DNA of 64,000 bases from Panopea generosa (Eukaryota; Mollusca; Bivalvia; Adapedonta; Hiatellidae): NCBI GenBank assembly GCA_029582155.1, contig CM055896.1, forward strand, positions 3,991,616 to 4,055,615, given 5' to 3'. Numbering within the stretch: the stretch's first letter is position 1; every line of letters begins with the position of its first letter. The translations under genes and the position numbers were made by a program. Below the pieces are notes generated by a model. It ran no database searches and was not told the DNA's origin. It saw only the letters and a program-made list of their open reading frames with translations. Positions 14,270 through 46,160 of this stretch are shown here, piece by piece.

Positions 14270-16050
14270 AATAAGTGTAAATCATAACTGTTGCAAACTG
14301 AAATCGAAAACTATTCATATATAAAAAGTACATCGAATATTCTTCCAGGCTGTATTTAGTGACAGCAAACATTTGAGGTATTATCTAAATCTAACTTTGG
14401 TTGAAATAACATCTTGATAGCAACGAACGTTAGCTTGTGTACAACTGACATTAAATACATGTGTTATGACGGCAACCAAGTGATTCAACGTTAAGGAAGT
14501 GAAGCGCCGAAGATTATGTAAATCGATACAGTTTTAATTCTCGTACAGATGTTGATTATAGACGTTTTTAAATGCTATAATGTACTACAAATGTAGCCCC
14601 ACACCGAAAACAATTCAGTGAAATATTTATCAATCCTAATAAAAACGATATATACTATAACAATATATTGCATTGTATGTATACAATAATAACACGTGTT
14701 GATATAATTACGTACAAGGAACTTGTCCTTTCGATAGATTCATATACATTGGTATTTATAATATAATTTGTTACATTTCCTCTTATCTTTTTGCATTAAT
14801 ATTCATTAAAAATCAAGGTAATAAGCTAAGTTTATTTCATAAATTTCATCCGCTAATCTATTCCTATGAGTGTATGGGTCAACTTCATAGTGTAATTAAA
14901 GTTCTTACATATACTATGTTTTTTTTATTTAATGTATCCCAATTAGATAAACTTTGTTTCTATATGTTATGACTGTTAAATGACAAAAAATAATTTAATC
15001 GAAAGTAGTCCAAGTATTAAGTTTATTTTTATTGAAGGTCATCATTTGACTCGTGGTAACATGCAATTATTAAAGAAATTGTTGAATACATTTTGATCCC
15101 TATCACAAATAAATCAACCTTAAAAGTTTTAAATAAGTTAATGTACAAAAGCAGACATCAGCTTATAGTGGCTAACTTGTTTTCAAACGTTTAGTAAATA
15201 TATACGAACATATCAAGTTGTCTGTCTTTCCTTTATAGCATCCATGCCTAGTTGATGTGTGTTAATATCACGTCATCATGTACAGTCACAGTCTTATGTA
15301 ACTTATGTATACTGTAACTGATCCACGTGTTTGTCCTAGAAACTGGCCAAGGTCAGTCTGTGCGATATAGATCGTAACTAAACTATAAACTCGATATGTT
15401 GCTGAAAGAACACCTTGATTCTTACACTTCCTGTGTACCTTTTGAAAGTTTATGGGTTTCGCCGATACAATTAACATTGGAGTTGCCGATTAGAACAAAG
15501 TCATCATTAAAGGAGCCAAACGGATGAAACATGGAAGGGCGAACATGGTCTTATTTCCGGTAGATTGAAACCTTGATGGCAACGTTTACTAGGGGAGGGT
15601 CCGTTAAAATCACTATTAAATATTGTTGTTTTTAGAAGGGTGCCTATATAAACTAGAGAAGGCAGTCTCTTACGTAGTGGACACACTGATCTGTCGCTTA
15701 GCCACTTGTTATTTGTTGCTAAGAATTAAAGTACTGTTTGTAAAACCACGTGTTTGTCTTAAGTAATACCATAGTAGTACAGATGTACAGGTACTTACAT
15801 TTTGGCACACACATTTATGTTGAAAAAAAGACTCTTGGTTAGAGTTTAGCTCGGTCCTAAAACTAAATGTAATAAAGGTAGTCAGTTACTTGAAGACAGA
15901 ATATGGTTCTACTCCGCTGATCTAACATGATTTGCAATTCAGGCTTTACAGGTAACTTTGAATGTGATAAGTTTATCTTCATATCCACTAGATATATAGA
16001 TGTAGTTTTGAGTGTTACATGTATTAGCCCATATGGAATATTCGCGAGAG
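14270..16050. other. 3' flank of the adhesion GPCR gene, no gene seen
   Basis: AT-rich sequence holding the probable 3' UTR, with AATAAA at 14638-14643. I see no conserved coding signal. Short open frames here lack codon or protein character. Confidence 0.6.
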
Positions 16051-16059
16051 GTGTCACAG

Positions 16060-17260
16060 GTAACTTTAAATGAGATTAGCTTAGCTACATTTTAACTAAA
16101 TAGATTACAGGTAGCGTGGAGTGTGATTAGTTTATCTTCATATTAACTAAGTATATTACAGGTAACGTTGAGTGTGATTAGTTTATCTTCATAGTAACTA
16201 AGTATATTACAGGTAACGTGGAGTGTGATTAGTTTATCTTCAAGTAACGTTGAGTATAATACGTTTATTTTCATATTAACTAGATATATTACAGGTAACG
16301 TTGAATATGATTAGTTTATCTTCATATTAACTAAATATATTTCAGGTAACTTTGAGTATGATAAGTTTATCTTCATATTTACTAGATATATTACAGGTAA
16401 CGTTGAGTGCGATTAGTTTATTTTCATATTAACTAGAATATATTACAGGTAGCTTTGAGTATGATTAGTCTATCTTCATATTAACAAAGTATATTACAGA
16501 TAACGTGGAGTGTGATTAGTTTATCTTCATATTAACTAGATATGTTACAGGTAACGTTGAGTATAATACGCTTATTTTCATATTAACTAGATATATTACA
16601 GATAACGTTCAGTATGATTAGTTTATCTTCATATTAACTAAATATATTTCAGGTAACTTTGAGTATGATAAGTTTATCTTCATATTTACTAGATATATTA
16701 CAGGTAACGTTGAGTGCGATTAGTTTATTTTCATATTAACTAGAATATATTACAGGTAACTTTGAGTATGATTAGTCTATCTTCATATTAACAAAGTATA
16801 TTACAGATAACGTGGAGTGTGATTAGTTTATCTTCATATTAACTAGATATGTTACAGGTAACGTTGAGTATAATACGCTTATTTTCATATTAACTAGATA
16901 TATTACAGATAACGTTGAGTATGATTTGTTTATCTTCATATTAACTAAATATATTTCAGGTAACTTTGAGTATGATAAGTTTATCTTCATATTTACTAGA
17001 TATATTACAGGTAACGTTGAGTGCGATTAGTTTATTTTCATATTAACTAGAATATATTACAGGTAACTTTGAGTATGATAAGTTTATCTTCATATTAACT
17101 AGATATTTTACAGGTAACGTTGAGTGTGAATAGTTTATCTTCATATTAACTAGATATATTACAGGTATCTTTTAGTAGGATAAAATGATCTGATATATAA
17201 AAAAAGGTGTTACAGATAACGTTTAGTGGGATTTATGTCATAACATATTCGCTAGATTTA
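16060..17260. repeat. 51-bp minisatellite with 307-bp higher-order repeat
   Basis: About 22 units of about 51 bp, consensus running through ggtaacgttgag, gattagtttatcttcat and attaactagatatattaca. From 16242 six distinguishable units recur as a block: the marker gagtataatacg repeats with its gtataat at 16254, 16561 and 16868, exactly 307 bp apart. The block is seen twice complete and once partial. Units at both edges are more diverged. Confidence 0.95.
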
Positions 17261-17860
17261 TTAAAGGTAAATTTAAGTAAATGGTACATGTGTTAGGCCA
17301 TCTGACATATTTACGAGTGGTGTTACGGGTAATTTTAGGCTGATTAATTGATCTGTAATATAAACGAGAGATGTTACATGTAACTTTGAGTGTGATTAGC
17401 TGATCTAACATTTTCACGATAGATTTTGAAAGTTATTTCGACTTTGATCAGCCGATTTTTCAAGGAATCGAGTTTTTTTTGGTGTATAGTTATAGTATAT
17501 AAAGTGAAGAAAAACTTACTCATATCCAAGGTCATATGTATTGTATCTGTATTATCATCTATATATTTTATAAGCCAATTCGTTCAATTTGTTTAACTGC
17601 TTAAACACATGTTCTTATACAGTCAATAGCTGTATCCAAGCTGTCAACACTCGTAGATTTCAAAAGATAAAACTAGAAACACAGTTTAATTTTAAGAGAT
17701 AAAGCATCTCCGAACTAAATTCTGCGTCAGCCTTCTGCCATTACAATCTTCGTGTTATCTCATTATGATATATACCGAACAATATATCATTAAAATAAAA
17801 GCAAATAAATATGCCAACCGGTACTTTATGTTGGTTAATGCTAACATTCTGTCTATTATC
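17260..17860. other. Spacer between minisatellite and transposon end
   Basis: AT-rich. The first part still shows decayed minisatellite units (gttacaggtaa-like runs to about 17430). No coding signal seen. Confidence 0.5.
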
Positions 17861-17940
17861 CCAGACAATATTCTCCAATTCGAAAAGGTGAAATCTCGCT
17901 CTCGTTAGTGACGAGATCTTGAGCTCAGGGGAATCGGTCA
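17861..17940 (+). repeat. Candidate left terminal inverted repeat
   Basis: Contains ttcgaaa, aatctcgctctcgt and the 14-mer gagctcaggggaat, all found inverted near 34330-34420. A start codon and a donor-like gtaagt follow within about 120 bases (18054), so this end may also be the promoter and first exon of the + strand gene. Confidence 0.55.
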
Positions 17941-18564
17941 CAATATAAACAAACGGTAGTGATGTTTCTGGCAGCGGTTTATACAACAAAAGTCTACACT
18001 TAACAGCCATGAAAAGAAAAAAAAACAACACAAGATACGAAAGAAAATGAAAAAGTAAGTTTCTCATGATAAAATAAAATTACTTTTTATTGTTTAGTGC
18101 GTGTCTGTAATAATTTAATACTTGTTTTTCTGATGATGGGTGGGGTAATTTGTAAATTTCAGAAGTTCAGTATCCTATTGAATTTTGATCACTTACCTTA
18201 CTGTCATTCACAAATAAAGAATGGGTATACCTTAATTGTTAAATAGTTTAAGTGACATGACGGAATTTATTAATTATTCTGTCTTTAAAGAGATGTATTG
18301 TCTTATGAAATTTCTAACCCTAACTGGCAACATACTTGTTGCACTGTCAGTTATTCAGAAACAGTGATTTTATATCATAGTTATTACATTTCTTAGACAT
18401 TTTAATAAGTATTGTAATTTTCAGACACATTGACATTGTTGTTTTGAAAAGTGGTAATATAATTCTCGGACACAGTGGTAATTTAATTTTGAGACTTTGT
18501 GAAGATATTTATATGCTTTGTATTTGCATACACTTCAAAAATTTGTGTACCAAATAATACAGAG

Positions 18565-18705
18565 AAACCCTGCAGGAATTGTCTTATGAAGCTGTGACCC
18601 AATAATATAATAACAGTCACTACTGTCATGAACCAGAGATCAAACCTGAAACCCATGAATCACGGGTCTGACATCTTATCATGTAGTCTGACATTGCAAA
18701 AACAA
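18565..18705 (-). mobile_element. tRNA-like SINE remnant
   Basis: The minus strand shows cagacccgtgattcatgg followed by a B-box-like ggtttgatctctggttc. It lies within the left part of the compound transposon. Confidence 0.4.
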
Positions 18706-19201
18706 GCATGATTGAATTTTAAATAGTAATATTACCCTTAGCTTGATGAAGAAAAGCTATATTCTTCTTTTAGTTGATTTTTGCACTACGTGTTGATGTA
18801 GACCCAGGCTAGCCTGCACATCTATGTCGTAATATCAGGGTCTATGCTGTTTAATCAATAAATTATCAAAAAACACTATAAAAAAAGGAATGGAATTTAA
18901 GGTAACATGGTCTGTTATTTTTAATTGTCTAAGAAGGAATAATAAATTATTGATTTAAATAAAATCTTATTTAGCTGAAATGTTAAAATTGACAGCATTA
19001 ATATTTTTTTATATCTTTTTTCTTATCATATTAAGCTGCTGCATCCATTGCTGCATAGCAGGAAATTGTTATAAGATTTTAATTTCATACCCTTTTTAAA
19101 TAAATGTAGATCAAGCATAGTTGTTGGGGGTATGGGGAAGGGTGTGGTTGTTGTTTTACATAACCGGCACTGTTTTTTTATAAATCACATTGTGCATTTT
19201 A

Positions 19202-19726
19202 CCAGTAAGTGAAGAAGCAGATAGGGCGGCTAAGGAGGGCCTAGGAATACAAAACTATTTCCAATTCAGTCCCCCTTGCACCAACCGAGGTCTATTCCTT
19301 AACAAGGAAAATAATCATTAAGAAATGGTCCACTTTTATTTCTAAAAAAACATTTAAACAAACATTTCGCAGGACCTCGGTTAATTTCAGACGACCAACA
19401 AATTACTCTAATAATAAGAGAATTGATGAATGCATTACTCGTCTGAGATTGGGTGTAAATCTCCTCCCAGGAAATAGAGGATAATATATAATTAATAAAG
19501 GGAGATATTGCACCCAGTGCAAGGAAAAAATTACCACTGAACATCTTCTGCTACACTTGCCCGATTCACAGGGTTCCCCCGGTCAAATTTAAGGACTGCG
19601 CTTGCTGGAAATAAGGTAGATTTCGACATTAATAATATTTTGAACCCCAGCAAGGCAGTCCGGGCCTCAGTCTATAAAGCTTTGGAATGTTATATTCTAG
19701 ACTGTCAGATGTCTGACAAAATATAG
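19202..19726 (+). pseudogene. Non-LTR retrotransposon ORF2 fragment (RNase H end)
   Basis: Three pieces in shifting frames resemble the C-terminus of a LINE ORF2. EEADRAAKEGLGIQ (from 19211) fits the end of an RNase H domain. RIDECITRLRLGVNLLPGNR (about 19421-19480) and CTQCKEKITTEHLLLHLP (about 19515-19565) fit the usual R-x-R-L-x-G and C-x-x-C ... T-x-E-H-L-L ... P tail. A final piece ends CQMSDKI with TAG at 19724-19726. Several stops and frameshifts make it non-functional. It is a fossil inside the compound transposon. Confidence 0.7.
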
Positions 19727-19729
19727 ACT

Positions 19730-20580
19730 TAAAAATTCAGGCCCTAATTTCATCAGTTATCCCTGAAACTACCACCCAGGGTCAGCAAAAATGTTTTATA
19801 GTACTTTGATTGGGGTTTCCAGTATGGTTTGATTTACTTGTTGTAGTGCTTGGTCCTTCTAAGTACAAAAAGTATCAGTTTCTAGTGGGAGGTGGGGTGA
19901 GACCACAATGCAGTCCACAAAAATGTTGTGTGGCCTGGGGTGTGGACTCATGCCACCTCCCACAGCTGAGCCATGCTTACCCAGAGAGAATTGTCATGTT
20001 AAAATATCAGATATGTAGTAAAATATTTTTGTCAGGCTTACATTCAGTCTGATTGAATTATAAATTGATTGGCATGAGAGTGATTTTTTTTTATGCCACC
20101 TTAAAATAACCTCCATTAAAAAGGAGATTGTATATGGGATTTATAACATTCACAACAAATATATGCTGACCCTGGGGAATGATAATATTCATTATATTAT
20201 CAAGGGACCTGGCCCGGTACCCCAGCACGGGTGATAAAAAATTTTTTACAGGGCCCCAAAATTCAGTGGAATACTATTATTAGCAATATTAATTAGGCCT
20301 GGACCTGTTAGGCCCAAGCGGCTAATTAGCTCTATCCTAAATGCAACAATATATTATTTTTACTATCAATGTTATATATAATGTACAAAACTTTTAATAA
20401 TATGTTGTTTATTTTATAACCCTAAACTGGGCCGTTTTGTACGTAGGAGACAGGATTATAACCATTATTTTTAAGTAACTTATTTTAAATATGTACTATT
20501 ATTTTAATAAAATATTGTTGCACTTAGAAAACAGCTTTTTATCCTACACCACATGAACATCATATAGCCTGTGTAATTCC
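19730..20580. other. LINE 3' flank and unassigned sequence
   Basis: Locally GC-richer than its surroundings (gggaggtggggtgagacc, ggcccggtaccccagcacgg). Possibly the 3' UTR of the fossil LINE. An 80-codon open frame at 19810-20052 has no recognisable features. Confidence 0.35.
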
Positions 20581-20584
20581 AACC

Positions 20585-21800
20585 AAGATTCACTGGTGTG
20601 TGTATAAGTTTTTATTTATCCTCGCGCTTTGAACAAGTCATTTTGGCGAGCAGGATAGGATGATTATTAAAAATTAAAAGATGATTACACATTTCTGTGA
20701 TGATTAATGTGTGATGAATGGAGATGATTCACATAATAAGTCGTGTCTATATTCAACTTTGAAGTTTGTTATTAACTGAGTTGTTTAATACAACAACATT
20801 TTTATATTTTTGCATTCGGTGCTTACTAATTCTAACATTGTTTATACTCATGATATTTTTAAATTTGTAGATTGACGACCAAAGTGTAGATTAATCGACT
20901 AAGAATATTATTATTTCTTTTTGTATTTACCGATTGCAGCCATATATTACTTATTAGTGCATGTAATTGATTAATTTAAATAAGGTGCACATATGGTTGT
21001 TCACCAATATTTTAAGTTAAACAACGCTGCTCATAGCGCAAATTGCTTTGCTTATAACGTCAGCGATATTCAACCTAACTATAAACCTTAGATAAAAATT
21101 TAATTCCATCCAAGGTGTTATCTGAACACATTAATTGTGTGTGGTTACAATGGTAAAATATAAGTACTTATCTTATGTAACCATGTATCCAGCGTACCAC
21201 CAATAATTGTCAATAGTAAACCATCAACAAATTATGGTGTGCCGTAAAACCCCAATCATAGTGTTTGATGGTATAAATGAACTGACCTAAATGGTTTGGC
21301 TGCAATGGAATTTATGGGATGTGTATTATTTTTGTACATTGTCACAGCTACTTATCATGCTATTTGTATATATTTGTAGTATCAGCTGAAGAGGGTATTA
21401 TCCATCAGCATATCGCACTTTATTTAAAAAATGACCAGTCACTGTTAATCGTACCATTCTGCATCAATAATGGTAAAGAATGGTTTAAGAGTGTGTTAAA
21501 ATAAAGTGACGTTAAACTGTGAAATATGTATAATAGGGCACCCGGCAGCTCGCGCGTACCTTAAAAGTGCCAATAATAAAAAATATTTTAAGAAATCAGA
21601 TATCATCTCAGATCAGATCTGAAATGAACTGATTAACAGTAACTGGTCCCAAATATTTAGAATAAAAAATAGTCTTGTGTAACTCTATACTGAATATCAG
21701 GGTGGTAGTAACCATAATATTCCCTACAACCGCACTCATTAGTGTATATTGAGTGCGATGAGACATATAATCCCGTACCAACAGGTACGTTATTATTTTT
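20585..21800 (+). repeat. Palindrome module, direct third copy (U1)
   Basis: The order of landmarks matches the left arm at 21803: agattcactggt, ctttgaac-aagtcattttggcgag, gatgattatt-aaaa, a run near gcgcaaattgctttgcttat, acacattaattgtg, cacccggcag-t-g-cgtacc, then tcagatcagatctg and cccgtacca-ca-gtacgttat. It is diverged relative to the two arms, so it is probably an older copy in the same orientation as the left arm. Confidence 0.8.
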
Positions 21801-21802
21801 AT

Positions 21803-24800
21803 GCGATAGATTCACTGGTCATCAAGTGCAATCTTTTGTATGTATAAGTGTTTCTTTACCCTCGCACTTTGAACTAAGTCATTTTGGCGAGCCGGATAAG
21901 ATGATTATTTAAAAAACAGGATGATTGCTTAAAAAGCAAGGTGATTATATTAAAAGATAAGATGATCATTTAAAATTAATGATAATGATGATGATGAAGA
22001 TGACGGCGATAATCGGTGATTACCCACTATGGAGTTTAAACACTTATTGTTTTATAAATATGGACATTCCTATTTTTACTTAATCAGTTGTTTAATTAGT
22101 TATTTTTAATTGCTTATATTGATGCAGACTTTATACGATTTACTTCAATATTCAAATACTAATGTTTAATTATTGAGACTCCAGGCATTCTACTCTACCT
22201 TGTGCAGCCAAAATATGATTTAAAAATATTAGTACCGATTGTACTAGCATTACTATGGTATGTGTAAAACCTATATATTAGGCCAGACGCTTTTGCTTAT
22301 AGCGCAAATAAATTTGCTTGAGATATCATAAGCGTCCGACCCAACTTGAACCCTCAACAGGAATGATTCCCGCTGATTGTTTATCTGTGCACACTAATTG
22401 TGCTCAGTTGCTATGGTAATATTTTATTTGTATGACAGTACCGTTAGCAACCGTATATACCACATACAGAGAGTAATTGTCAATATATAAATATCAACAA
22501 ACTAAAGTATGCCGTAAAACCAGCAACAATATTATTTTGTTGCTGGTATGGTACTTGACTTAAAAGAATATGGCTACACAGGTATTAATGTTTAAGTAAA
22601 TGAGGTTTCATATATTAGTATATTTTCAGTCGATCGTCTTGCATAGCTCTATATTGAATGCCTATGATACTAATAACATCATTTGACATTCTCTAAAACC
22701 ATTATACAGTAGTATTTACTGTTAATGGTGAACCATATAACCCTGTACACACGTACATTGTTATTTATATACTTTAAATTGTATATTTGTATTTGTATGG
22801 TAAACTAGAAAGTTGTAATAACTTCTAAAAGTGTTCAACCATTTTTTTTTAATAATATAGCGGCAGGTACCGCTATATCATAGTTTGAGCTACGCAAGTT
22901 TATGAATAATTAATTTATTGAAAAATGTTCGTCAGCCTTGCAATATTTTGCTAGTATACCACACTATTAAAATGTGACCAACCACCGCTAATCTCCCATG
23001 ATGTATCAGATATTGGTACACAATGGACTAAAAGTATGTTAAAAATTGTTATTAAATTAAATTGTGATGTTTGTAAAGAAGCACCCGGCAGATTGCTCGT
23101 ACCTAAAAAGCGCCATAATTAAAAAATATCTTAAAAAATCCGATATCCCCTCAGGTAGTGAATACGGAGTTACTATATAGTCCCGTAATCAACATGATAT
23201 ACGTTATCGCAATCTTTTGTTTACATCTTCTCCGGGTCAACATTCCATTGAAGGTCAAACGCTGCCGATTGGCTGGATTTCAATCACGGACCTAATAGTG
23301 AACAGTTCTATTTTTACTTCACAGTTTTATGTCCTGAGCTTAAAGCCGAAAACGGATTGAAATCTAGCCAATCGGAATGAGCGTTTCATTCCCGATCGAA
23401 CCACTCAGCGACCGGCTTTTATTGGGGCCTTTGGCCCTACTGATGTTGATCTGGGGAAGAGATGTATTATTAAATATGAACATGAACGCTTTATATCTAG
23501 TAATGGATGTGTATTATACACATTTTAGCGTTTTTTGCATGTTTATATTAATTTATAATGATTATAATTTTAATAATTATTTAAATAGTAACGTATATCA
23601 TGTTGATTACGGGACTATATGGCAACTCCGTATTCACTACACAGCATTGAGTACGGTTCTAGGGAATATCATGGTTAGGAAATGCCATGATACTCATTAT
23701 TGAATTACACAAGACTACTTTATAAATATATAGTGACCAACTTCTACTAATCAGTTCTCAGCAGATCTGATCTGAGGGGATATCGGGTTTTTTAAGATAT
23801 TTTTTAATTATAGCGCTTTTTAGGTACGAGCAATCTGCCGGGTGCTTCTTTACAAACATCACAATTTAATAACAATTTTTATCATATTTTTAGTCCATTG
23901 TGTACCACTATGTGATACATCATGGGAGATTAGCGGTGGTTGGTCACTTTTTAATAATGTGGTGTACTGATAAAATATTGCAAGGCTGACGAACACATTT
24001 TAATAACTTAATTATTCATAAACTTGCGTAGCTCAATCTATGATATAACGGTACCTGCTGATATATTAATAAAAAAAATGGTTGAACACTTTTAGAAGTT
24101 CTTACAACTCTTTAGTGTACCCTACAAATATACAATTTAAAGTATATAAATAACAATGTACGTGTGTACAGGGTTATATGGTTCACCACTAACAGTAAAT
24201 ACTACTGTATAATGGTTTTAGGGAATGTCAATCGATGTTATTAGTATCATAGGCATTCAATATAGAGCTATGCAAGACGATCAACTGAAAATAGACTAAT
24301 ATATGAAACATCATTTACTTAAATATTAATACCTGTGCAGCCATATTCTTTTAAGTCACGTACCATACCAGCAACAAAATAATATTGTTGCTGGTTTTAC
24401 GGCATACTCTAGTTTGTTGATATTTTTGTATTGGCAATTACTGTCTGTATGTGGTATATACGGTTGCTAACGGTACTGTCATACAAATAAAAATATTACC
24501 ATAGCAACTGAGCACAATTAGTGTGCACAGATATACAGTCAGCGGGAATCATTCCTGTTGAGGGTTCAAGTTGGGTCGGACACTTATGATATCTCAAACA
24601 AATTTATTTGCGCTATAAGCAAAAGTATCTGGCCTAACATATAGGTTTTACATATAGTAAAGAACCATAATAACGCTCGTACACTTGGTACTAATATTTT
24701 AACTCATATTTTGGCTGCACAAGGTAGAGTAGAATGCCTGGAGTCTTAATAATTAAACGTTAGCATTTGGTTGTTGAAGAAGGTCATATAAAGTCTGCAT

Positions 24801-25090
24801 CAATATAAGCAAATAAAAACATTCAATAAAACAACCGGTTAAATAAAAATAGGAGTATCTATATTTATTAAACAATAAGTGTTTAAACTCCATAGTGGGT
24901 AATCATCGTTTATCGTCGTCATCTTCATCATCATCATTAGTTTTAAATAATCATCTTATCTTTTAAATAATCACCTTATTTTTTAAGTAATCATCTTGTT
25001 TTTTAAATAATCATCTTATCCGGCTCGCCAAAATGACTTAGTTCAAAGTGCGAGGGTAAATAAATACTTATACATACATACCAGTAAGTA
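21803..25090. repeat. 3.3-kb imperfect palindrome (two ~1.5-1.7 kb arms)
   Basis: Left arm about 21803-23300, right arm about 23345-25090, centre near 23320. Paired landmarks: ctttgaactaagtcatttt (about 21867) with its complement near 25030-25050; acccaacttgaaccctcaac (about 22340) with 24560; gcaacaatattattttgttg (about 22522) with 24371; cacccggcagattgctcgta (about 23082) with 23828-23847; gattggctggatttcaatc with gattgaaatctagccaatc at the centre. The right arm has two extra blocks (about 23390-23590 and 23640-23760); the second matches module U1, so the left arm has a deletion. No coding frame is conserved between arms. Confidence 0.9.
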
Positions 25091-25099
25091 GCCAATTTA

Positions 25100-26620
25100 A
25101 TATATGATTAGCTTTTCAAACAGTTCACTGGACAAATAGGGACAGTGTCATATAGAATATTATACCTACAGGCATACTGCACAAAGTCCAGCTGCTGGCA
25201 CCCTGTAGAGCTTTCATAATTCACCAACACCACATTCACACCATGTGGTAATGGGAAATACCATGCCACAGTGTGCATATTGTACCCTAATTAGCATAAA
25301 TCACTCTAGGGTTTATGACCAGGATGTATGTAATATCACATAGTGTTATGACTTTATACATATTTAAACATTTTTTCGAAGTGACATTAAACAATCAATT
25401 TAAATACAAAATCTTTTATTTTTCTTGTTGCCTAAACTAAAATGTGCATCAGAAATTTAAAAAGAAAAAATCCTACACAACTTTGTATGATGTATTTGTA
25501 TTTAATTACAAAATATATGCAACTTTCTTAGTAAGTTCACAAAAAGGTTGAAAATGGTCAATTAGTATTTTTTTATCTCCATTTTTTAGAAATTATTCAT
25601 ATCTTAGTGGCACTCTGCTAACACATATTTTATACAAATAAAGAAGTTGATGATATAAACTAGAAGAAATAGAATTTATATGTAACGTCCGTCCCAACTA
25701 CATATACATGTATATGTAGTTGGGATGTATATGTAGTTGAGACGGACGTAAGATATACATTTTACACTTCAGTGAATATCTTTCTTAAGCACACATGGGT
25801 CAATTTTTAGATTTTTTTTATAGTACATTAATATGTATGACAGCTGGTGAATGAATCATTCTTATTATCTTCTTGGAAGAATATATGCCAGTTTGTTTTT
25901 TTGTCACAAATTGAAATTATTTGATTTTATGTATTTTTTCTCAAATACACTATTTTAACAGTAAAAACAAAACTCTGCTGTTGAATAACATACAATAGCA
26001 AAGCGTTAGAAGGAAAATAACTTTGATTTAGTACATTTTCACATATATTTATGGATAAATAAAGGAACAAAGGTTTTAATTTTTATTTTCCATAACGAAG
26101 TACAGGACTGTATCAAATGTCTATTTAAGAATAAATGACCTACCTGACCGTGAAAAGCCACATATCAACATAAAAGTAATTAAATTATCTATCGATCAAA
26201 ATGAATAAAATGAGTTTGTGAACAATTAAATGACGTATTTGTATTTGAATAAAGGGTAAATTTTAGATGCCAACACATTATGCTCCCAAACATATGTTTT
26301 TAGGCCATTCTAAGCTCTAAAATAAAAATCATAGCTTTTTTGTGATAAATTAAAAAAACACAGTTAAGTAGTATTGATATGTTTTAATAGTAATGGTTAA
26401 AATTAGAAATTAACTTATATTTTGTTTTCTAAAATAATTTTCCTATTATTTTTTTTAAAAAATGGCCTATTTACTGTACAACAGGCACCATTAACTGTTA
26501 AACAGGCAAGCACAAGTTATATTTTTAAATACCACAATAAAAAATGTTTCTCTTATGAAATTCAAGCTGTTTTCATGTATGTGAGTTGTAAATTCTTCTA
26601 AAATATTTGTTTTGCTTATT
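25100..26620. other. AT-rich spacer before the YqaJ gene
   Basis: No gene seen, apart from a small hairpin at 25685-25749 annotated separately. If the first exon of the YqaJ gene is at the left end of the element, this is intron. Confidence 0.5.
25685..25749. repeat. Nested hairpin with perfect 32-bp palindrome
   Basis: Bases 25693-25724 are a perfect palindrome (arm cccaactacatataca). A 24-base outer arm, 25685-25708, also pairs with 25726-25749 with one mismatch. The right half of the palindrome thus exists twice, giving two alternative hairpins. Confidence 0.95.
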
Positions 26621-26625
26621 TTTAG

Positions 26626-27059
26626 GTTTCTGATGTGCATTTACCAGACAGCCTTCGAGAACTCCACCAGTTAACGAACCCACAGCTTTCAACACTATTA
26701 AGACAACTACATATACCTTCTAAAGGAAAAGCGCAACCATAGAATCACGTTATTAGCCAAAAAACTGAACAAATGATCCTTTCATCAGCACTTTGAAGGA
26801 TGTGTCTAATATAGTTGAAGGCTGGGAAACTGATATACGTCTGGTGCCAGAGGTAAAACTTGATTATATAGTTCAATACCTTCTGGCATCACATGACATC
26901 ACTCCAAAGAAGAATGGTGACTATGAAGTCTATGATGAGAAGAGCCTTCGTTGCTACAAAGCCCTGCGTTCGTATAATTTGTGGGAGTCGGGCCATATCC
27001 ATGGCATTGAATACAATGAACTTGTAAGTCTCAGTAACCTTTTGTGCACTGAAATGTAA
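26626..27059 (+). pseudogene. 5' coding part of the YqaJ-family protein, broken
   Basis: After an acceptor (tttttag at 26625) the frame reads ELHQLTNPQLSTLLRQLHIP and SKGKAQ, resembling a SAP-type helix-turn (L-x-x-L-x-I/L-P-x-x-G-K), but meets TAG at about 26740. Another frame, 26793-27059, gives VKLDYIVQYLLASHD and YKALRSYNLWESGHIHGIEY, the conserved N-terminal segment of SWIM/YqaJ transposon proteins. That frame must shift by one base near 27028-27050 to join the SWIM segment downstream. A strong donor-like gtaagt at 27024 exists, but coding similarity continues directly after it, so I read this as a frameshift and not an intron. Confidence 0.65.
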
Positions 27060-28701
27060 AGCCAACCCATCCTTCGACACTTCTGGAACACAATATGAAG
27101 TCATAGTTATACTGAAAGAATCTGGTGAACCAGTCGGGGCATGTTGTTCATGTGTTGCTGGGCTTGGTGAGGCATGTACTCATGTCGCTGGTTTACTTTT
27201 TGCAATTGAAGATTTCATTTCAAGAGGATATAAAGATCTACCGGACTGCCAAACCACAACAGAAAAACTATGTAAATGGGTTGCTCCTAAAGGTCCAAAG
27301 GTAACGCCCAAGCCATTAAAACAAATTCCTGTACAAAAACCATCAAAGTACAAAAAGGTTAAACTGTATAGTGCTAGTGAATTTAAACCAGTTCCAGAAA
27401 ACCTCAGACCAGTGGATATGAATGATTTGCAAACATTACATAATTCCCTATGCCTTATTAATCCAAATTTACCCTGGGTTAGAGGAGTGGCCCCTCAAGT
27501 GTTAGAGAAGATTCATCCCAGAGATGTTCTTGATCCAGTTCCAGTTTTAAGTTTACAGGACAATGTAGAATATTTGAACGAATCAATAGCACCTTCAAGA
27601 GAAGAAGAAGTATCTACTAATGAACAACCCCTGACATTAAAGGAAAGATTAACATATATTTTGCACGGTGACCAATTCGCAGAAGTTGTGAAAAAGATAG
27701 CAATGACGCCAGATGAAAGAACAATAGTGGAACATTTGACATTTGATCAATCTGCTTCTGTTGAATGGTTCCTTTACCGCCAGGGTATGATAACTGCATC
27801 AACTTTTCATCATGTTTCTGTCCATGTCGACAAACTCATCAGTTCAGGTATAAAAGAAAATACAGCAACAGATAAATTAGTGGATATGCTCGTCAACGGC
27901 AGTAAATTTAAAGGTAATGCTGCTACACGCTATGGGAGCAGTAGTGAGTCTGTAGCGGCAAAATTGTATGAACAGCAGTTCAAGAAGTCTCATCAGAATG
28001 TGGAAGTTTGTAAAAGAGGCCTTGTGATTGATAGTGAACATTGTTACATAGGCGTTTTTCATGATAGAATTGTTCAGTGTGACTGCCATGGAAGAAGACT
28101 GATGGAAATCAAATGTCCTTATACTTTCCAAACCAAAGATATTACGTTTGAGAGCCTTGATTATCTTTTTCAAATTAAAGGAAAATATCACCTGAAGCAG
28201 AAAGGCAATCCATACTATTCCCAAATCCAAGTACAAATGATGGTTACTGGTATCCGAGTCTCTGATCTTGTCATTTTTTATGGCAGTAGTATATGTGTTA
28301 TTCCTGTGGAGTATGACAGTGCCCATTGTGGTTTATTAATGAAGAACCTGAATTTCTTTTTCATTGAACATGTGCTGCCAACTCTTCTATGTCAAACCAA
28401 CAGCCCTTCTCTCAAAAGTGAGCAGGAAAGTTTAAATTGTGGTATTTTACAGGAAAGGAGAATTGTTCAAAACAGTGTAAGTGTCGATAGTGATAGATAC
28501 TACTGTGGTAAATGTGGAGAGTTGTTATCAGAAAACATTTCAGATAATAAACAGGCCAGTATTAAGTGTGAATGCCAATGTCAGTGCAATCAATGGTTTC
28601 ACTGGAAGTGTGTAGGCTATATTCCAGATCCAGACAACTTTGATGTTGAACCTCCATGGTTCTGCAGAAACTGTGTGAAATCTTGTGACATTGTCATGTG
28701 A
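27028..28701 (+). CDS. SWIM zinc finger - YqaJ nuclease - PHD finger protein
   Basis: One open frame runs from a stop at 27025-27027 to TGA at 28699-28701; the first in-frame ATG is at 27418, downstream of the SWIM finger, so the real start was probably further upstream. Order: SWIM motif CCSCVAGLGEACTHVAGLLF (27145-27204); a spacer; a YqaJ-type nuclease fold about 27760-28280 with WFLYRQGMITAS, GSSSE, HDRIV and MEIKCPY (candidate catalytic D and E-x-K); then a C4HC3 PHD finger, 28498-28680 (CGKC ... WFHWKC ... WFCRNC). YqaJ proteins are phage-type recombination exonucleases; in ISL2EU-type transposons a YqaJ protein accompanies the transposase, role unproven. The usual SPDG catalytic motif reads FHDR here, retaining the Asp. 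Convergent with the transposase gene. Confidence 0.85.
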   Translation, partial: VSVTFCALKCKANPSFDTSGTQYEVIVILKESGEPVGACCSCVAGLGEACTHVAGLLFAIEDFISRGYKDLPDCQTTTEKLCKWVAPKGPKVTPKPLKQIPVQKPSKYKKVKLYSASEFKPVPENLRPVDMNDLQTLHNSLCLINPNLPWVRGVAPQVLEKIHPRDVLDPVPVLSLQDNVEYLNESIAPSREEEVSTNEQPLTLKERLTYILHGDQFAEVVKKIAMTPDERTIVEHLTFDQSASVEWFLYRQGMITASTFHHVSVHVDKLISSGIKENTATDKLVDMLVNGSKFKGNAATRYGSSSESVAAKLYEQQFKKSHQNVEVCKRGLVIDSEHCYIGVFHDRIVQCDCHGRRLMEIKCPYTFQTKDITFESLDYLFQIKGKYHLKQKGNPYYSQIQVQMMVTGIRVSDLVIFYGSSICVIPVEYDSAHCGLLMKNLNFFFIEHVLPTLLCQTNSPSLKSEQESLNCGILQERRIVQNSVSVDSDRYYCGKCGELLSENISDNKQASIKCECQCQCNQWFHWKCVGYIPDPDNFDVEPPWFCRNCVKSCDIVM

Positions 28702-28720
28702 GAATTAACAAATATTAGTT

Positions 28721-28945
28721 GGTGGGCCTGCATGGATCAGTAGGTAACATGTTTGACTCAATGAAGGTATCTCGAGATAGAATCCCAGCCTGGCTTCAGT
28801 CTCTGTAATTGTTCATGAACTTTGTCATGAGTCTACCCCTCTAAATATGTGGGGAAGTAGTGACTTGAGGAGATCAGGCAAATCTTGTACTAGGCTAATT
28901 ATAGCATAGTGCATCCCAGGAATGATAAGTGTACTACCATTGTTA
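28721..28945 (+). mobile_element. tRNA-derived SINE, copy 1 of a pair
   Basis: The head (gggcctgcatggatcagtag, B-box-like agatagaatcccagcctgg) is followed by a body with gtaattgttcatgaacttt and an end at gcatcccaggaatgataag. It starts 20 bases after the YqaJ stop codon. A related copy follows at 29040. Confidence 0.6.
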
Positions 28946-29039
28946 ATAACTAATATACTGTTGAAAAAAAATCGGCTTTAAATCCTTATGTTTACATTAT
29001 GTTTTCCATCTACTTAAGTTAAAACTTAAGTTATTTTAA

Positions 29040-29270
29040 GAACGGCCCTGGACTGCTCAGTTGATTATGAATTTGACTCTCAATCAAATAATTGTTTGTT
29101 TGAATCCGCGGGCCAGACTGACTCAGTCTTTTTTATGATTGTTCATGATCTTGTTCTGCAACCATCATGAATCGTCTGTTTAGGAAAGAAGTCAGTGATT
29201 TACAGAGATATGGTCAGTCTAGTATTTGTGTATCCCAGGAACAAGCAAAAGGTGTGGTAGCTGCCATTAA
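29040..29270 (+). mobile_element. tRNA-derived SINE, copy 2 of a pair
   Basis: The head has ggactgctcagttgattatg and a B-box-like ttgtttgaatccgcgggcc. The body has gattgttcatgatcttgtt and ends at gtatcccaggaacaagc, the same plan as 28721-28945. Confidence 0.6.
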
Positions 29271-29895
29271 ATAACTGAAAAACTTTTACAGGCAGGATTT
29301 TAGACAAAATCACAGCAATATGTGTACCCAATGCAACATTTTAATATTATCGTTTTTAAAATATGTTGAAAGTTTTAAAGACTCTTAATAATAGTCTGGA
29401 ATGTCTTGTTTGCAGCTTAAGTTATGTTTGTCTTGTAAACTGTATCACCAGACAAATAGCACAAGGCCAAATGTAATAATAGCTGTGATAACTATTTCCC
29501 ATCTGTCCCTTGAGATTTCACCATTTCATGTATTACATTGCTTGAAAAAAAAAAACATACGAATTTGAATGACAGGTGCTCACATAATTATTAAATGTGA
29601 TTTGATGATTTATTTTGCTTTCATTATTGTCTTTCAGTTATATGTACATGTATCATTTATATGTAAATATATATATATATATATTTAAATCCTATCAAGT
29701 CCTTCTTGGAGGGAAACAATTAACATGGCTATCATTTTATTTAACCTATTAATACATCCCTGCAAGGAGCTGCCATTAGTTGTTGAGAATACTTTCAAAA
29801 CTTGAATTTAAACTTGAGATATATGTGTATTTTGTTGAGTTGTCATAAAATAGTCTTAAGAAATTGAATTTGCTGTTGCACTTGATATACATATA
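29270..29895. other. AT-rich spacer, no gene seen
   Basis: Probable 3' flank of the YqaJ gene. It holds a (TA)n run near 29667-29686. Confidence 0.5.
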
Positions 29896-30121
29896 TATTG
29901 AACAGAACAGCTAACGAGCCACCTGACATTTTATGTATTAATATCGAAAAACTATTGAAGCTATTTCCTCAAAATTTAAGTGAAAATTGATATTTTAAAC
30001 ATTTAGGACTATCATTCAAAGTAAAAAAACAATACTGTTGATGAATTTTAAAAACCCTACTAAATATATTGACACAGATATTGGAAATAAAAAAGTGGCA
30101 GGTTAGCTGTTCTGTTCAGTA
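29896..30121. mobile_element. 226-bp MITE with ~25-bp TIRs and TA duplication
   Basis: The left end, tattgaacagaacagctaac, and the reverse complement of the right end, tactgaacagaacagctaac, differ by one base over 20 and stay similar further in (gccac, tttt). TA flanks both sides (29894-29895 and 30122-30123). No coding capacity. It sits between the YqaJ and transposase genes. Confidence 0.85.
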
Positions 30122-30868
30122 TACATTCATAATTAAAAAATATGAAGAACAATGATTTTTCAAGTAATTGTTTTTATTTACTCTCCCTCTCAGCTGTAAT
30201 CCACCATAAATGTAAATGCGGTTCAAGCAAATTTTACTTTAAAAGTATATGACTGGATTTTTTGCTACTATATGTTAACATGTGGTTCATATATATTGAC
30301 TTGCATACAAATATATAAATACAAGTTTAAAATAAATTCACTCAAATTTCTTTATGTCTCAAGTCGATTTGTTAATATCAAACATGCAAGTAACTTTTGT
30401 AAGCTTTCTATGAATCGCACATTTGTTTTCTCTTAATGGATAATAAAAATATACACGATATATACAGTGTCATTTAAAAAGAAGCCTTTCTTAATATTTT
30501 CTCAACTAAAACACTTTTGCTTGAACTTCAGAGACAATGAATTTGCTTTTCTTTCATATTTAGATGGTCATTAATGTGTAATGTTTCTCTTATCTAGACA
30601 ATATGATTATAGATATTCAATATTAATTGATCTCACCCAAACTCATGCATCCACAAACACGCTTTGAACATTAGACTAGAACTACACAAGATATTAACAT
30701 GGATAAAGAACAAATAAAAGTTAATCTGGTGTGCTATCAAGTTAACCTTTTCCTTGAAAAGCTTTTTGTTCATTACATATCAAGACTTCCCTTCTTGACT
30801 GTTAACTGTTAGCACATTTAACTCAACTACAACTATTTCAAGTTCATACAATCTTCACTTAATCAATT

Positions 30869-31992
30869 TCAAACTTTCAAGAATGGATCCTGAAAGTTGA
30901 TGAGATAACCACATGCTTTAAAAATGTTTTCATAAGCATCTATTTGACACAGTTTCATCTCTTTGGCCAAGAAAGCAAACTGTTTTATTCTTCTGATGGC
31001 TCTTTCAATATGAACTCTTGCCTCTGAAATCTTCTTGTTTTTCTTCAATTCTTCTTTGCTGAACTGTGATTTGTCTTTATGTTTTAATGATGGCATTACT
31101 AAATGAACTCCAGGAGGCAAGTCTTCGCTGATAATAAAGCCTCGGTCAACTTTTTCTCCGGGATAAAGGGCACCAAGTAAATCACAACTCTCATTCGTAA
31201 TTAATTTATCCGAGGCTCTTCCTCCGTACATTTGGGAAATGTATGTTATTGCACCTCCTGCATTTATTCCAACAAGAAATTTGATAGTACTGTGGTGCTT
31301 ATAGTAGGAAAACAATTGCTTGTGTGCAGACAATGATGATGGTGTTTCTGCAAAAAGTTCTGTGCAGTCTAGAATGATTCTTAGGTTACTGAACTCGGAG
31401 AAACAGTCAGCTGTCGGTACTTGCTCATTTCCAGTGTCGGATAGCTTTCAAATTTTCTCAAGTTCAATTGATAACAGACAAACCCAGGCATTGAATATGC
31501 TGGAAAATGTTGATTCGGCAATGCCAAATCTCACCGCCATGTCACCTGAGGGAATGCCCAACCGCAAACGTACTAGTGTAACAAAGAATTCATCTCTTAG
31601 ATCTAAAGTACGGATTCGTCCAGGTCGTTTCTTAAATTTCTCAGAATAATGGGAATGTGCCACTGTTCTTTCACCATATGGATATTTCATGTGAATTGCT
31701 TTTGGTTCTAAATAGTTAAACAATGCCTCAAACACATCATAGGAGGGAAATCCAGTATAGTATTTAAACATTTTTGGGTTCTGTTTAACATTGTAAAGTG
31801 TTAGGATTTGGCACTTGTCATTCATAGATTCCAATGTTTCCAACTATTCCTTGGCTTTCTCGCCTTTTTCAATGTATTCCTTAAGGGAAGGATCAACAGT
31901 TACCATGTGAATGAGGTTTGGTCAACTTCTGTTTTTAAATAGTCATGTCCATGTGGCTGAAAATCTGATGTATCCTCAACATAGCCTTCCCT
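30869..31992 (-). pseudogene. DDE transposase catalytic exon(s), broken
   Basis: Read from 31992 down: linker REGYVEDTSDFQPHGHDYL, a frameshift near 31905, TAG at 31844-31846, then an open frame to a TGA at 31448-31450 where the frame simply continues to the natural stop at 30869-30871. The domain is a DDE_Tnp_4-type RNase H-fold transposase: helix-turn region (LRLGIPSGDMAVRFGIAEST), first catalytic Asp in RIILDCTE, second in GGRASDK or VDRGF, and Glu in ARVHIERAIRRIK. All catalytic residues survive. The TGA falls where relatives usually have Trp, so a TGG to TGA change is likely. It would cut and paste the element; this copy is inactive unless the stops are bypassed. Confidence 0.85.
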
Positions 31993-32243
31993 CTCTGGTA
32001 TAATTGTAAGATTTTGGATATAAAAAGCAAAAAAGCTTTAAAAAAACACATAACAATATATATGCAATCATTTCACTGAGCACCAGGCCACTCACTTTTG
32101 TACTTTTCACGTATACCGCAATAAAAGGAAGTACTCAGCCACTATCAATTGGTTAAAATATTTTTGAACCGACAAAATGTCAACTATGGTCATTAAGTAT
32201 GTGGTAATATATGTGAAGTTGCATTATATTTCTTGATCCCTTA

Positions 32244-32460
32244 CTGGCAGGTCCTCATTAGCTCAATCAGTAGCGCGTCTGACTATCAATCCAGAGGTCA
32301 TGAATTTGAATCCCAATCCTGCCAGTCTCCTAGATGATTGATATATATATTATGCTATTGCACGTCATTATCATTCATTTCTCACCGAAGATTCAAGTGT
32401 GAAAGTTATATATAAGCCGTCAATGGCATAAATATGATGCCTAACATACAATCAAACAAT
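32244..32460 (+). mobile_element. tRNA-derived SINE (family C)
   Basis: The head has attagctcaatcagtagcg, tctgactatcaatccagagg and a B-box-like gaatttgaatccc, then a short body (gatgattgata, cattatcattcatttctcac). It shares the plan of 32549 and 47196. It lies in the transposase gene region, upstream of the DDE exon. Confidence 0.7.
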
Positions 32461-32548
32461 AAAAATCCTTACTGATTAAATTGGTGTTGCGGTCTATTAA
32501 TAATTATAATTAATATCAATACTATTTATTCTTTTACAATTCGTTCAA

Positions 32549-32845
32549 GCTGGGCCTGATAAGCTCAGTTAGTAGCATCTGACTATCAATCCAGGGGCCG
32601 TTAGTTTGAATCCCCGCCTGGCAAGTCTCCGTGATGATTGATATATAATACGTCTCATTATTATTTGTGTCTCACCTCTGATTTATTTGGGAAATTTATC
32701 AGTTACTTGTATAGATGGAAAATGCCCGAGAACTGGTTAACCTTTCAGGATTCCAGGAAACAATGGTTAGATTAACTGATCGTCTTTTAACCTTCGATGG
32801 CATAAACATGATACTTAAATTCAATCAACCAATTAAATTCATTAA
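32549..32845 (+). mobile_element. tRNA-derived SINE (family C)
   Basis: The head is gataagctcagttagtagc with tctgactatcaatccagggg and gtttgaatccccg. The longer body contains gaaacaatggttagattaac and tgatcgtcttttaacc, as in the copy at 47196. Confidence 0.75.
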
Positions 32846-32886
32846 TGAATTAAAACTAAATGGAGAGAGCAGTCGTAGATTCTTAC

Positions 32887-32949
32887 CAAAGGGAGCGTCA
32901 TGTCATCACAGTTGTTAATATTACTATGACTTACATCCATAGGAGTAGC
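32887..32949 (-). CDS. Probable short linker exon of the THAP-DDE transposase
   Basis: A 63-nt open segment (ATPMDVSHSNINNCDDMTLP) has a good acceptor (ttttgcag) and donor (gtaaga) on the minus strand, phase 0 on both sides, between the THAP and DDE exons. It rests on splice signals and frame only, so it is tentative. Confidence 0.4.
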
Positions 32950-33422
32950 CTGCAAAATGAATTAATAAAAATTAAAAGAAACAAAACAACCTGAGCTAAA
33001 TGACAATTTGGCAATGAATCATAAATGGCATTTATGGGCTTGAATTTTTTATTTTTTTTGCAAAAGCTTACTTTCCTGTAAATCATTATTTTCGTTGAAT
33101 ATCTTTTCGTCTTTTAATGTCTAAAACATACTAAATATAATGACTGATTCATACAAGTTTTACTAATAAAATATATTTTAATGAGTGCCTTACACAGCAA
33201 ATGTGCTGGAAGGTGTTTACGTGCTCTTTACCCAGTGCTTGCACTCCTTCCTCAGGAGAACCCTGGTGTGTGTGCGTGCTATGTTGCTTACAGACGTTTT
33301 TATACTACCGGTTCAGTTAAATGTTTGTTCCATGTTCTCTAACATCAATACAAAACTAAATATAACTTCATTTTTATTGGAAAATTTAATACTAGAAAAG
33401 ATAAATTTAACATACATAATAC

Positions 33423-33809
33423 AGTTTCCTTGGTTTTCTGTGGTTCTCTGTGGCAAAACTGCTGATTTGTGGATTTGATGGTTGACCTTGGTTTTTTAGT
33501 CGATGAGTTCCGTCTGTTTGGAAATATGGAGGGCAGTACATATTTCCTTCCAGGTCGTCGGCATTTGGGATGCAAAATAGTTGTCTTCTCCTCGTCAGTG
33601 AAATGGCAGTCACATATACGGTGGTTGTCTGTTGGTATCCATTCCCTAAGTTTGCCATCTCCATCCTTGTAGCTCCGTTTTATTCTAGACTGCCACTGTT
33701 CATACAATCTTTTTGGCTTTTTTGGAATTGTATAAAATGTTGCACAGGGTGGATTTTTACTTCTCTTGTGGTTACACATAGGTACATAACAGTAGTCGTC
33801 TGATGGCAT
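33423..33809 (-). CDS. THAP-domain exon of the transposase
   Basis: ATG at 33807-33809, 11 bases after an acceptor (tttcag). The THAP zinc-dependent DNA-binding domain (C2CH) fills the first ~90 residues: CYVPMCNH, W at QWQSRIKR, CDCHF, and YVLPSIF in place of the usual AVPTIF. A basic Ser/Thr/Lys linker follows. The 3' border is uncertain: a phase-0 donor after 33423 fits the next exon, while a stronger consensus donor (gtatgt) at 33415 does not keep the frame. In these elements the THAP domain binds the terminal repeats. No break seen in this exon. Confidence 0.8.
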
Positions 33810-34329
33810 TTTTATTGAACTGAAATAAAATTTATATAACAATAAACTTAAGTCACTAATAAATAGTTGTTGAGTAAAAATATTTATCAAAATTAAATGA
33901 ATAATGAAAAATGTACAGTACACTTACATGGGAATGTTGGTTTATGTATGTTGAAACTAGGCCACTCAGACACGAAGTTTTAAACTTCTTATTCATCTTT
34001 ATGTTCTCTTTATATATCTTGAATGCATTATGTATTTGAAACAAATTGATTAATTTCTTCTGCTATAATAACTTGTAATAATTTACATTTATTATGCCAG
34101 ACACACACATAATTTTAGTTTATGCTAACTTCACCTGCCCACACACTTGCAACAGTAATAAAGTCGCAATAAATAGATAATCATGGTCAAAAACCGCATA
34201 ATTTCTTATGTTCGTCCGTGTTACTAGCATACTCGCTAAAACTAAACTGCTTAAATAAATATTTGTATTACTAATGTATTAAAATTCAATTTACTTACGT
34301 GAAATCTACATTGCTTTAGCAGTGGACAC

Positions 34330-34420
34330 AGTGAAATGAATTCCCCTGAGCTCACATCTCGCGCATAATCTCGCTCTCGTACGCGACGAGAGTTCGGGAT
34401 TTCGAAGAGGTCAATACTGG
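34330..34420 (-). repeat. Candidate right terminal inverted repeat
   Basis: The reverse complement reads cccagtattgacc, ttcgaaatcccg, a palindrome-like ctctcgtcgcgtacgagag, then gagctcaggggaat, the same order as 17861-17940. Going inwards a donor-like gtaagt follows, upstream of the THAP exon, which fits a promoter-bearing end for the transposase gene. Confidence 0.55.
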
Positions 34421-36759: not shown

Positions 36760-37102
36760 TACATTGACTAAGACCGCAACGTGGTCTAGTGGTATAGCGT
36801 TCGCCTCGCATGTGGAAGGTCGTGGGTTCGATCCCCAACCGAGTCATACCAAAGACTTTAGAAATGGGACTAAAATCTTCCTCGCTTAGCGCTCAGCATT
36901 TAGAGGAAAGTTCTAGGTCTGGTCCACCCGGTGTCAGTGTATTGTGACTGATGTTGGTATTATACCATGTGTCTGCGGCATTATACTCCAGTGTGACAGC
37001 GCTTAGAATACTGTCTCAAGTAGACACCGTCGCGATATGACTGAAAAAGTGTTGAAAGCGACGCTAAAACACCATAGAACAACAACACCATTACATTGAC
37101 TA
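36760..37102 (+). mobile_element. tRNA-Ala/Val-like SINE with 11-bp target site duplication
   Basis: Body 36771-37091: head with gtggtctagtggtatagcgt and B box gtgggttcgatcccc, then a conserved body (agcgctcagcatttagagg, gtagacaccgtcgcgatatg) ending aacaacaacaccat. The flanks repeat tacattgacta at 36760-36770 and 37092-37102. Related copies lie at 38090 (minus) and 40858. Confidence 0.9.
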
Positions 37103-38089: not shown

Positions 38090-38390
38090 TCTTTAGCGTC
38101 GCTTTCAACAAATTGTCAGCCATATCGCGACGGTGTCTACTTGAGAGAGTTTTCTATGTGCTACCACACTTGAGTATCATGCTGCAGGCAGTATGATATC
38201 CCGTCAAATAACTTAATACTGAAACTGGGCCAATCACACGTAGAACTATCCTCGAAATGCTGAGCGCCAAGCAAGGTAGCTTCTAAAACAATATCTCAAG
38301 TAGTTTGTAGACCCGATTGGAGGTTGAACCCACGGCATTCTGAAGCGTGGCATGCGCTCTACCAATATACCATCGCGTTGCGGTTTAATT
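38090..38390 (-). mobile_element. tRNA-Ala/Val-like SINE
   Basis: Reverse-complement copy of the family at 36771: catatcgcgacggtgtctac, gctgagcgccaagcaaggta and a diverged head with ggttgaacccacggcattc near 38310-38380. Confidence 0.8.
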
Positions 38391-40857: not shown

Positions 40858-41105
40858 ACCGCAGCATTGGTCTAGGGGTAGACCGTCCGTCTCACAAGCC
40901 GTTGGTTCGATTCCTGGCCGGGTCATACCAAAAACAAACTTAAAATATGGTACTTGGAGCTAATTCGCTTGGCGCTCAGTATTCAAAAGATAGTTCAAGA
41001 TCTGGTCGGTCCAATAAGTGCCATGTGACTTGTTGGAGTATCATATTACGTATCTGAGGAATGGTACTTAAGCATGGCAGCGTTTCTCGAAACACATCCA
41101 CGTGA
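40858..41105 (+). mobile_element. tRNA-Ala/Val-like SINE, 3'-diverged
   Basis: The head gcattggtctaggggtagac with B box gttggttcgattcctgg, then cttggcgctcagtattcaa and a body as in 36771. The 3' part fades near 41105. Confidence 0.8.
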
Positions 41106-41750: not shown

Positions 41751-43785
<2,035 letters not shown>

Positions 43786-45104: not shown

Positions 45105-46160
45105 ACGATTTCTTACACCGACGTTAGTGTTTTCTGCTATGGTTTGTTGACACCGACGTAAGTGTTGTCTGTTATCGATTGTTTACACGGTCGTTAGTGT
45201 TATCTGTTATCGGTTGATTAAACCGACGCTATTGTAACAGGTTATTGGTTGTTTACACCGACGTTAGTGTTATCTGTTAACGGTTGTTTACGCCAACGTT
45301 AGTTTTATCTGTTATCGGTTGTTTACACCGACGATAGTGTTATCTGTTATCGGTTGTTTAAACCGACGTAAGTGTTATCTGTTATCGGTTGTTTATTACT
45401 CCAACGCTTTTGTAACAATTTATTGGTTGTTTACACCGTCGTTGGTGTTATCTGTTTTCGGTTGTTCAATCCGACGCTATTGTAACAAGTTATCGGTTGT
45501 TTACACCGACGTTAGTGTTATCTGTCATCGGTTGTTTACGCCGACGTTATTGTATTAAGTTATCGGTTGTTTACACCGACGTTAGTATTATCTATTATCG
45601 ATGTTTTAAGCCGACGCTATTGTAATAAGTTATTGGTTGTTTACACCGTCGTTAGTGTTATCTGTTATCGATTGTTTAAGCCGACGCTATTGTAACACGT
45701 TATCGGTTGTTTACACCGACGTTAGTGGTATCTGTTATCGGTCGTTTACGCCGACGCTATTGTAACAAGTTATCGGTTGTTTACATCGACGTTAGTGTTA
45801 TCTGTTATCGGTCGTTTACGCCGACGCTATTGTAACAAGTTATCGGTTGTTTACATCGACGTAAGTGTTATCTGTTGTTTACACCAACGTTAGTGTTATC
45901 TGTTATCGGTTGTTTACACCGACGTTAGTGTTATCTGTTATCGTTTATTTACACCAACGTTAGTGTTATCAATAACCGTTTGTTGACACCGACGTGTTAT
46001 CAGATATCGATTATTTACACCGACATTAGTGTTGTCCGTTATAGATTCTTTAAACCGACAAGTAGTGTTGCATCGACGTTAGTTTTATTATTCATAACTG
46101 TTTATTAACATCGACGTTAGTGTTATAAGTTATCGATTGTTTACACCGAAGCCAGTTTTA
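45105..46160. repeat. 35-bp minisatellite with alternating variants
   Basis: About 30 units of 35 bp share cggttgtttac-ccgacg. Variant A continues ttagtgttatctgttat, variant B ctattgtaacaagttat. From about 45410 to 45870 A and B alternate, giving a 70-bp higher-order unit; both edges are mainly A and more diverged. GC content is above the surroundings. Confidence 0.95.

Follow-up and report, generated by a model that had tools for sequence, protein, structure and literature searches.

We analysed a 64,000-nucleotide stretch of Panopea generosa DNA (the window, C3:3991616-4055615), and find that its positions 17872-34413 almost certainly represent an ISL2EU DNA transposon, a defective copy of autonomous type that was later invaded by nested retrotransposons. 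A convergent gene pair lies inside inverted ends bordered by AT duplications. Relatives that share these ends, some with genes and some without, occur in different surroundings. Comparison with these copies, all from the window's own genome (1.47 Gb, 39 contigs), upheld the ISL2EU-like identity that an earlier note on the window had proposed; the extent given there, 17861-34420, contains a real element, but the ends lie 7-11 bp further inward. The ISL2EU assignment is supported by the predicted protein domains, the target-site duplication (TSD) and the length of the terminal inverted repeats (TIRs), all of which agree with the published description.

The left TIR (17872-17934, + strand, 63 bp) closes with the 14-mer GAGCTCAGGGGAAT, and the right TIR (34340-34413, - strand, 74 bp) carries the same 14-mer; the window holds one forward copy, at 17921, one inverted copy, at 34340, and no other. 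Alignment of the two TIRs gives 49 identities, 13 mismatches and 13 gaps for a score of 44, which none of 2000 dinucleotide shuffles reached (maximum 25). With some host flank included the score becomes 53, which no shuffle (of 2000) and no random pair (of 19,878) reached. When the 500-bp ends were aligned more loosely, the score of 74 was not above 300 shuffles (mean 60, maximum 95), and the similarity of the ends is thus terminal only. The inverted ends with a common 14-mer described in the earlier note are therefore borne out, both by an alignment that beats shuffles and by genomic copies that share these ends. One other candidate for the ends, CCCAG...CTGGG, was rejected as chance host flank just outside the AT, given that genomic copies begin and end at the AT.

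The earlier note had also suggested looking for copies with the same ends and for an empty site, and the genome provided such copies as well as an empty site for one of them, C11. Using the left 500 bp as query, we scored 40 matches (window included) among 419 candidates. Of the 39 other copies, 37 start at 17865-17871 and the remaining two at 17862 and 17947. Reading of the ends and genes in 18 fetched copies placed an AT at 17 of 17 left ends and, with the right end of the C11 copy (in L043) added to 14 of 16 others, at 15 of 17 right ends. Both ends were read in 16 other copies, and 14 of these have AT on each side, as does the window, where the two duplications occupy 17870-17871 and 34414-34415. 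It is these copies with AT at both ends that define the element as 17872-34413. The C16 copy is without a left end and has AT at its right end, and L013 shows a left end only within its 10 kb. Allowing at most one mismatch, 17 of the 18 fetched copies have the 14-mer at their left end and 15 have it at their right end. The C11 copy sits in a satellite, with flanks reading ...GAAGT-AT-element-AT-GGG..., and the left flank (1503 bp) holds 23 examples of the uninterrupted unit (A/T)GAAGTATGGGCAT and the right flank (265 bp) three, making 26 in 1768 bp. Comparison of these flanks with the uninterrupted unit therefore yields a paralogous empty site with a 2-bp AT duplication.

Pfam matches on opposite strands confirm that the YqaJ and THAP/DDE transposase genes are convergent, as the earlier note had stated. 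The YqaJ-nuclease gene (26626-28701, + strand) runs from a SAP-like start through a SWIM-like CxCx7CxH motif and the YqaJ domain to a PHD-like finger. YqaJ (PF09588, E 4e-16) lies above the Pfam cut-off; PHD (E 4e-4) and SAP (E 0.04) in the nuclease open reading frame (ORF) each lie below it, and Pfam finds no SWIM domain in the nuclease, the motif at 27145-27183 having been read by eye. Of the domains listed in the earlier note, YqaJ, THAP and DDE therefore stand, PHD is weak and SWIM is without a Pfam match. A PDB sequence search with the nuclease ORF returned 16 weak matches (best E 0.033), all at residues 491-554 in the C-terminal finger; they include chains of pygopus, KDM5B, ING2, SHPRH, TAF3 and PHF2, which we take to be PHD fingers. 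The same search with the DDE piece gave no match, and protein searches of viral contig and genome contig collections returned no relatives of the ISL2EU proteins. A possible first exon of the YqaJ gene (18009-18054, + strand) is followed by GTAAGT at 18055 and has similar counterparts in other left-end copies; here and throughout, GT/AG signals are the sole basis for the exon and intron bounds.

The transposase gene on the minus strand comprises a catalytic domain, DDE_Tnp_4 (30869-31447, E 8e-36), HTH_Tnp_4 with the upstream part of the same exon (31448-32010, outer bound inferred, E 8e-14) and a THAP-domain exon that starts at the first ATG (33348-33809, E 1e-8), all three matches being above Pfam cut-offs. 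It carries DCTE, ASDK and HIER at the expected positions of the DDE triad, to which we presumptively assign them. Two tRNA-like short repeats (32247-32789, + strand, starting at 32247 and 32549; tRNA origin judged by eye) lie in a presumed intron of this gene, and are older insertions since C7 and C11 already carry both. Nothing in the window reached the Rfam gathering score, nor was a tRNA gene found there.

Neither gene is intact: stops and a shifted frame, both seen in the HTH exon, separate the transposase pieces, and the nuclease frame fails upstream of 27028, from where 557 codons are open. That long open frame could speak for a gene pair recruited by the host, with the transposon as a surrounding relic, but stops or frame breaks in both window genes, and the same or missing pieces in C7, C11 and C16, make recruitment hardly credible.

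Among the candidates scored for gene relatives (78 of 321 for the nuclease, 150 of 347 for the transposase), the only close gene-bearing copies besides the window are those on C7, C11 and C16. Their nucleases are 81-95% identical to that of the window when compared piece by piece (87-95% in a second comparison), with the next best near 30%, and their transposases 76-94%, with the next best near 45%. All three are collinear with the window at 89-98% identity in the main blocks, and each has stops or missing pieces in its genes; the C11 element measures 9893 bp and the C7 element 15,411 bp. With just four such loci, window included, one might consider them segmental duplications or host genes rather than transposed copies. 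We find this very improbable, because C7 resembles the window only as far as the AT on either side even though the search took in flank, C11 is bounded by AT on both sides inside its satellite, C16 terminates at AT on the right, and gene-less derivatives carry the same ends as the gene-bearing loci.

These derivatives are abundant. Fourteen of the 18 fetched copies are shorter (2137-7185 bp) with both ends present, and none of the 14 has a match to YqaJ, HTH or DDE at E 1e-5. In six of them (L014, L016, L019, L020, L024 and L028) a diverged match to THAP persists, a hint of another autonomous source that is itself diverged; in larger pieces, identity in these six is ~37-72%. Of 72 YqaJ loci counted genome-wide, 52 are paired with a DDE match in convergent orientation no more than 12 kb away, one has a match in another orientation and 19 have none listed, the 72 loci being the 89 listed rows minus 17 second pieces of the same loci, with the second DDE pieces of C7 and C11 excluded. 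Many of the paired loci have long open frames. Judged by these matches, numerous, divergent ISL2EU-like families populate the genome.

The available part of the published description of ISL2EU (PMC4482050) defines element groups by TSD composition. According to it, ISL2EU elements duplicate AT, encode a YqaJ protein as well as a DDE/HTH/THAP transposase, and have TIRs of 6-259 bp that usually start with GG; they prefer A|AT|T targets, and autonomous ones average 4.84 kb in length. The window element is like these in its transposase with DDE, HTH and THAP, its YqaJ second protein and its AT duplication, and its TIRs of 63 and 74 bp fall inside the reported range. It likewise resembles, by description, the teleost ISL2EU elements that pair a DDE transposase carrying HTH or THAP with a YqaJ nuclease (PMC9179366, available part). 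The SAP-like, SWIM-like and PHD-like parts of the nuclease are additional to what that part of PMC4482050 describes.

Several observations nevertheless count against the assignment. The ends of the window element begin TC/TG and not with the usual GG, which is a tendency and not a definition (PMC4482050). The reported A|AT|T preference (PMC4482050) is not seen: the base before the left AT is A in 4 and T in 12 of 17 copies, and the base after the right AT is T in 4 of 15. At ~10.66 kb before the retrotransposon insertion, the element is over twice the published mean length of 4.84 kb (PMC4482050). The right-end AT is replaced by GT in L017 and by TT in L028, and one of 19,871 random inverted pairs drawn from the window scored above the 44 of the end repeats. 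Weighing both sides, we conclude that this is very probably a new, long family of the known ISL2EU group, set beside published ISL2EU elements by description.

A 5.87-kb block (19211-25078) is missing in all three gene-bearing relatives, which substantiates the earlier suggestion of a copy 'swollen by nested insertions'; the label 'compound', in its bacterial sense, is inapplicable to such a structure. Two copies of an 11-bp duplication, TACCAGTAAGT, flank the block in the window (19200-19210 and 25079-25089), whereas C7, C11 and C16 are continuous at this place, with a single copy. Block and one duplication together measure 5879 bp, so the copy was 10,663 bp long before the insertion. The block (+ strand) begins within an RNase H domain and finishes in a 3' end rich in ACAT. 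Elsewhere its sequence continues upstream, and in L044 this continuation matches RNase_H (E 7e-16) and RVT_1 (E 2.5e-9) in Pfam; Pfam detected no retrotransposon domain in the window's own decayed fragments. Given this continuation into RNase H and reverse transcriptase, we interpret the block as a non-long-terminal-repeat (non-LTR) retrotransposon truncated at 19211. It shows the features of that class: reverse transcriptase (in L044), 5' truncation at 19211 and an 11-bp target duplication.

Within the block lie two further retrotransposon 3' ends, both antisense and each flanked by its own 12-bp duplication. A1 (20598-21807, - strand) has the duplication AGATTCACTGGT at 20586-20597 and 21808-21819, and A2 (21840-23208, - strand) has GCAATCTTTTGT at 21828-21839 and 23209-23220. 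A3 (23209-25078, + strand) is the 3' untranslated region (UTR) of the interrupted retrotransposon, as identified from uninterrupted loci: six of the 11 loci L030-L040 (L030, L031, L032, L035, L036 and L040) are without A1 and A2, and join 20597 directly to the 3' UTR at 23209 via GATTCACTGGTCATCAAGTGCAATCTTTTGT. A2 forms the left and A3 the right arm of the palindrome (21837-23154 and 23772-25078, 91%). A2 and A3 are 90.6% identical, and A1 is 61-64% identical to either. Over 22900-23154, A2 matches loci other than A3's closest at 98-100%, whereas A3's closest loci reach only 91-92%; the palindrome therefore consists of two members of one retrotransposon family lying in opposite directions. 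On sequence evidence it is a retrotransposon 3' UTR opposite an antisense copy of itself, and lies outside ISL2EU proper. The multi-kilobase palindrome of the earlier note is thus present, but its place as a possible unusual part of ISL2EU is lost, since it is missing in the three gene-bearing relatives.

The long inverted arms, with 20-bp tandem repeats close to the arm ends, recall the foldback transposon Tetris, as described in the available part of PMC4079207, and could suggest an integral foldback part of ISL2EU or an independent foldback DNA transposon. We give this very little credence. The forward arm is found at other loci without the A2 arm, and its element runs into RNase H and reverse transcriptase sequence in L044; the inserts carry separate 11- and 12-bp duplications; and among the loci read there is no whole palindrome with common outer ends, all in addition to its absence from C7, C11 and C16. 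The two arms of a foldback element would move together, sharing outer ends and a single TSD; the arms here, unlike those of Tetris (PMC4079207, available part), are 3' ends of separate retrotransposons with separate duplications.

We propose that the ISL2EU element would have moved by the joint action of its two proteins. The THAP part of the transposase would bind the element ends, with the 14-mer, retained at both ends in most copies, as a candidate THAP site; the DDE domain would excise the element and then join it at AT; the YqaJ nuclease would assist in some step of transposition; and gene-less copies would be mobilised in trans. After the ISL2EU insertion, the 5'-truncated non-LTR retrotransposon entered the apparent first intron of the YqaJ gene, with the 11-bp duplication. 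Its 3' UTR in turn received two more retrotransposon 3' ends, both antisense, and the palindrome was created by the one that is ~91% identical to this 3' UTR.

Four antisense sites, distinguished by the duplications AGATTCACTGGT, GCAATCTTTTGT, CATATAGCCTG and CTGGTCATCA, fall within ~60 bp at the start of this 3' UTR. A ~640-bp antisense repeat is present with duplication CATATAGCCTG in L037 and L042 and with duplication CTGGTCATCA in L038 and L041, and each pair may stem from one event that was later copied. This repeat has a retrotransposon-like 3' end and occupies two of the four sites. The stretch is clean in 16 judged loci (six read, ten judged by match spacing, one of them 47 bp short), interrupted in six (the window, L033, L037, L038, L041 and L042) and ambiguous in L034 and L039, where these counts exclude unread loci seen in just one of two spacing searches and come from a biased sample, because L041 and L042 were chosen for their interrupted spacing. 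It is conceivable, though in our estimation somewhat doubtful, that this stretch is a real hot spot for antisense retrotransposon 3' ends that repeatedly makes long palindromes.

The remainder of the window contains other repeats and one helicase fragment. A tandem array at 15946-17435, with a 51-bp unit and a 307-bp higher-order repeat (97% matches), stops ~0.4 kb to the left of the element, and further arrays at 9358-10690 and 45113-46166 have units of ~22 and ~35 bp. To the right of the element lie three copies of a dispersed repeat of ~240-300 bp (36770-37004, 38092-38384 and 40855-41085) and, on the minus strand, a Helicase_C domain with a glycine-rich tail (41955-42961), presumably of a DDX5/DDX17-type RNA helicase. 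A 244-bp unit at 56332-56819 is duplicated in tandem, probably recently given that its copies are 98% identical.

By resolving the order of insertion through duplications and uninterrupted relatives, our analysis removes the apparent puzzle of an ISL2EU element with a palindrome. The long ISL2EU family and its abundant gene-less derivatives will help to annotate repeats in this genome. The possible antisense hot spot is relevant to the origin of long palindromes, and, if it is real, the palindromes that arise there could feed double-stranded-RNA silencing.

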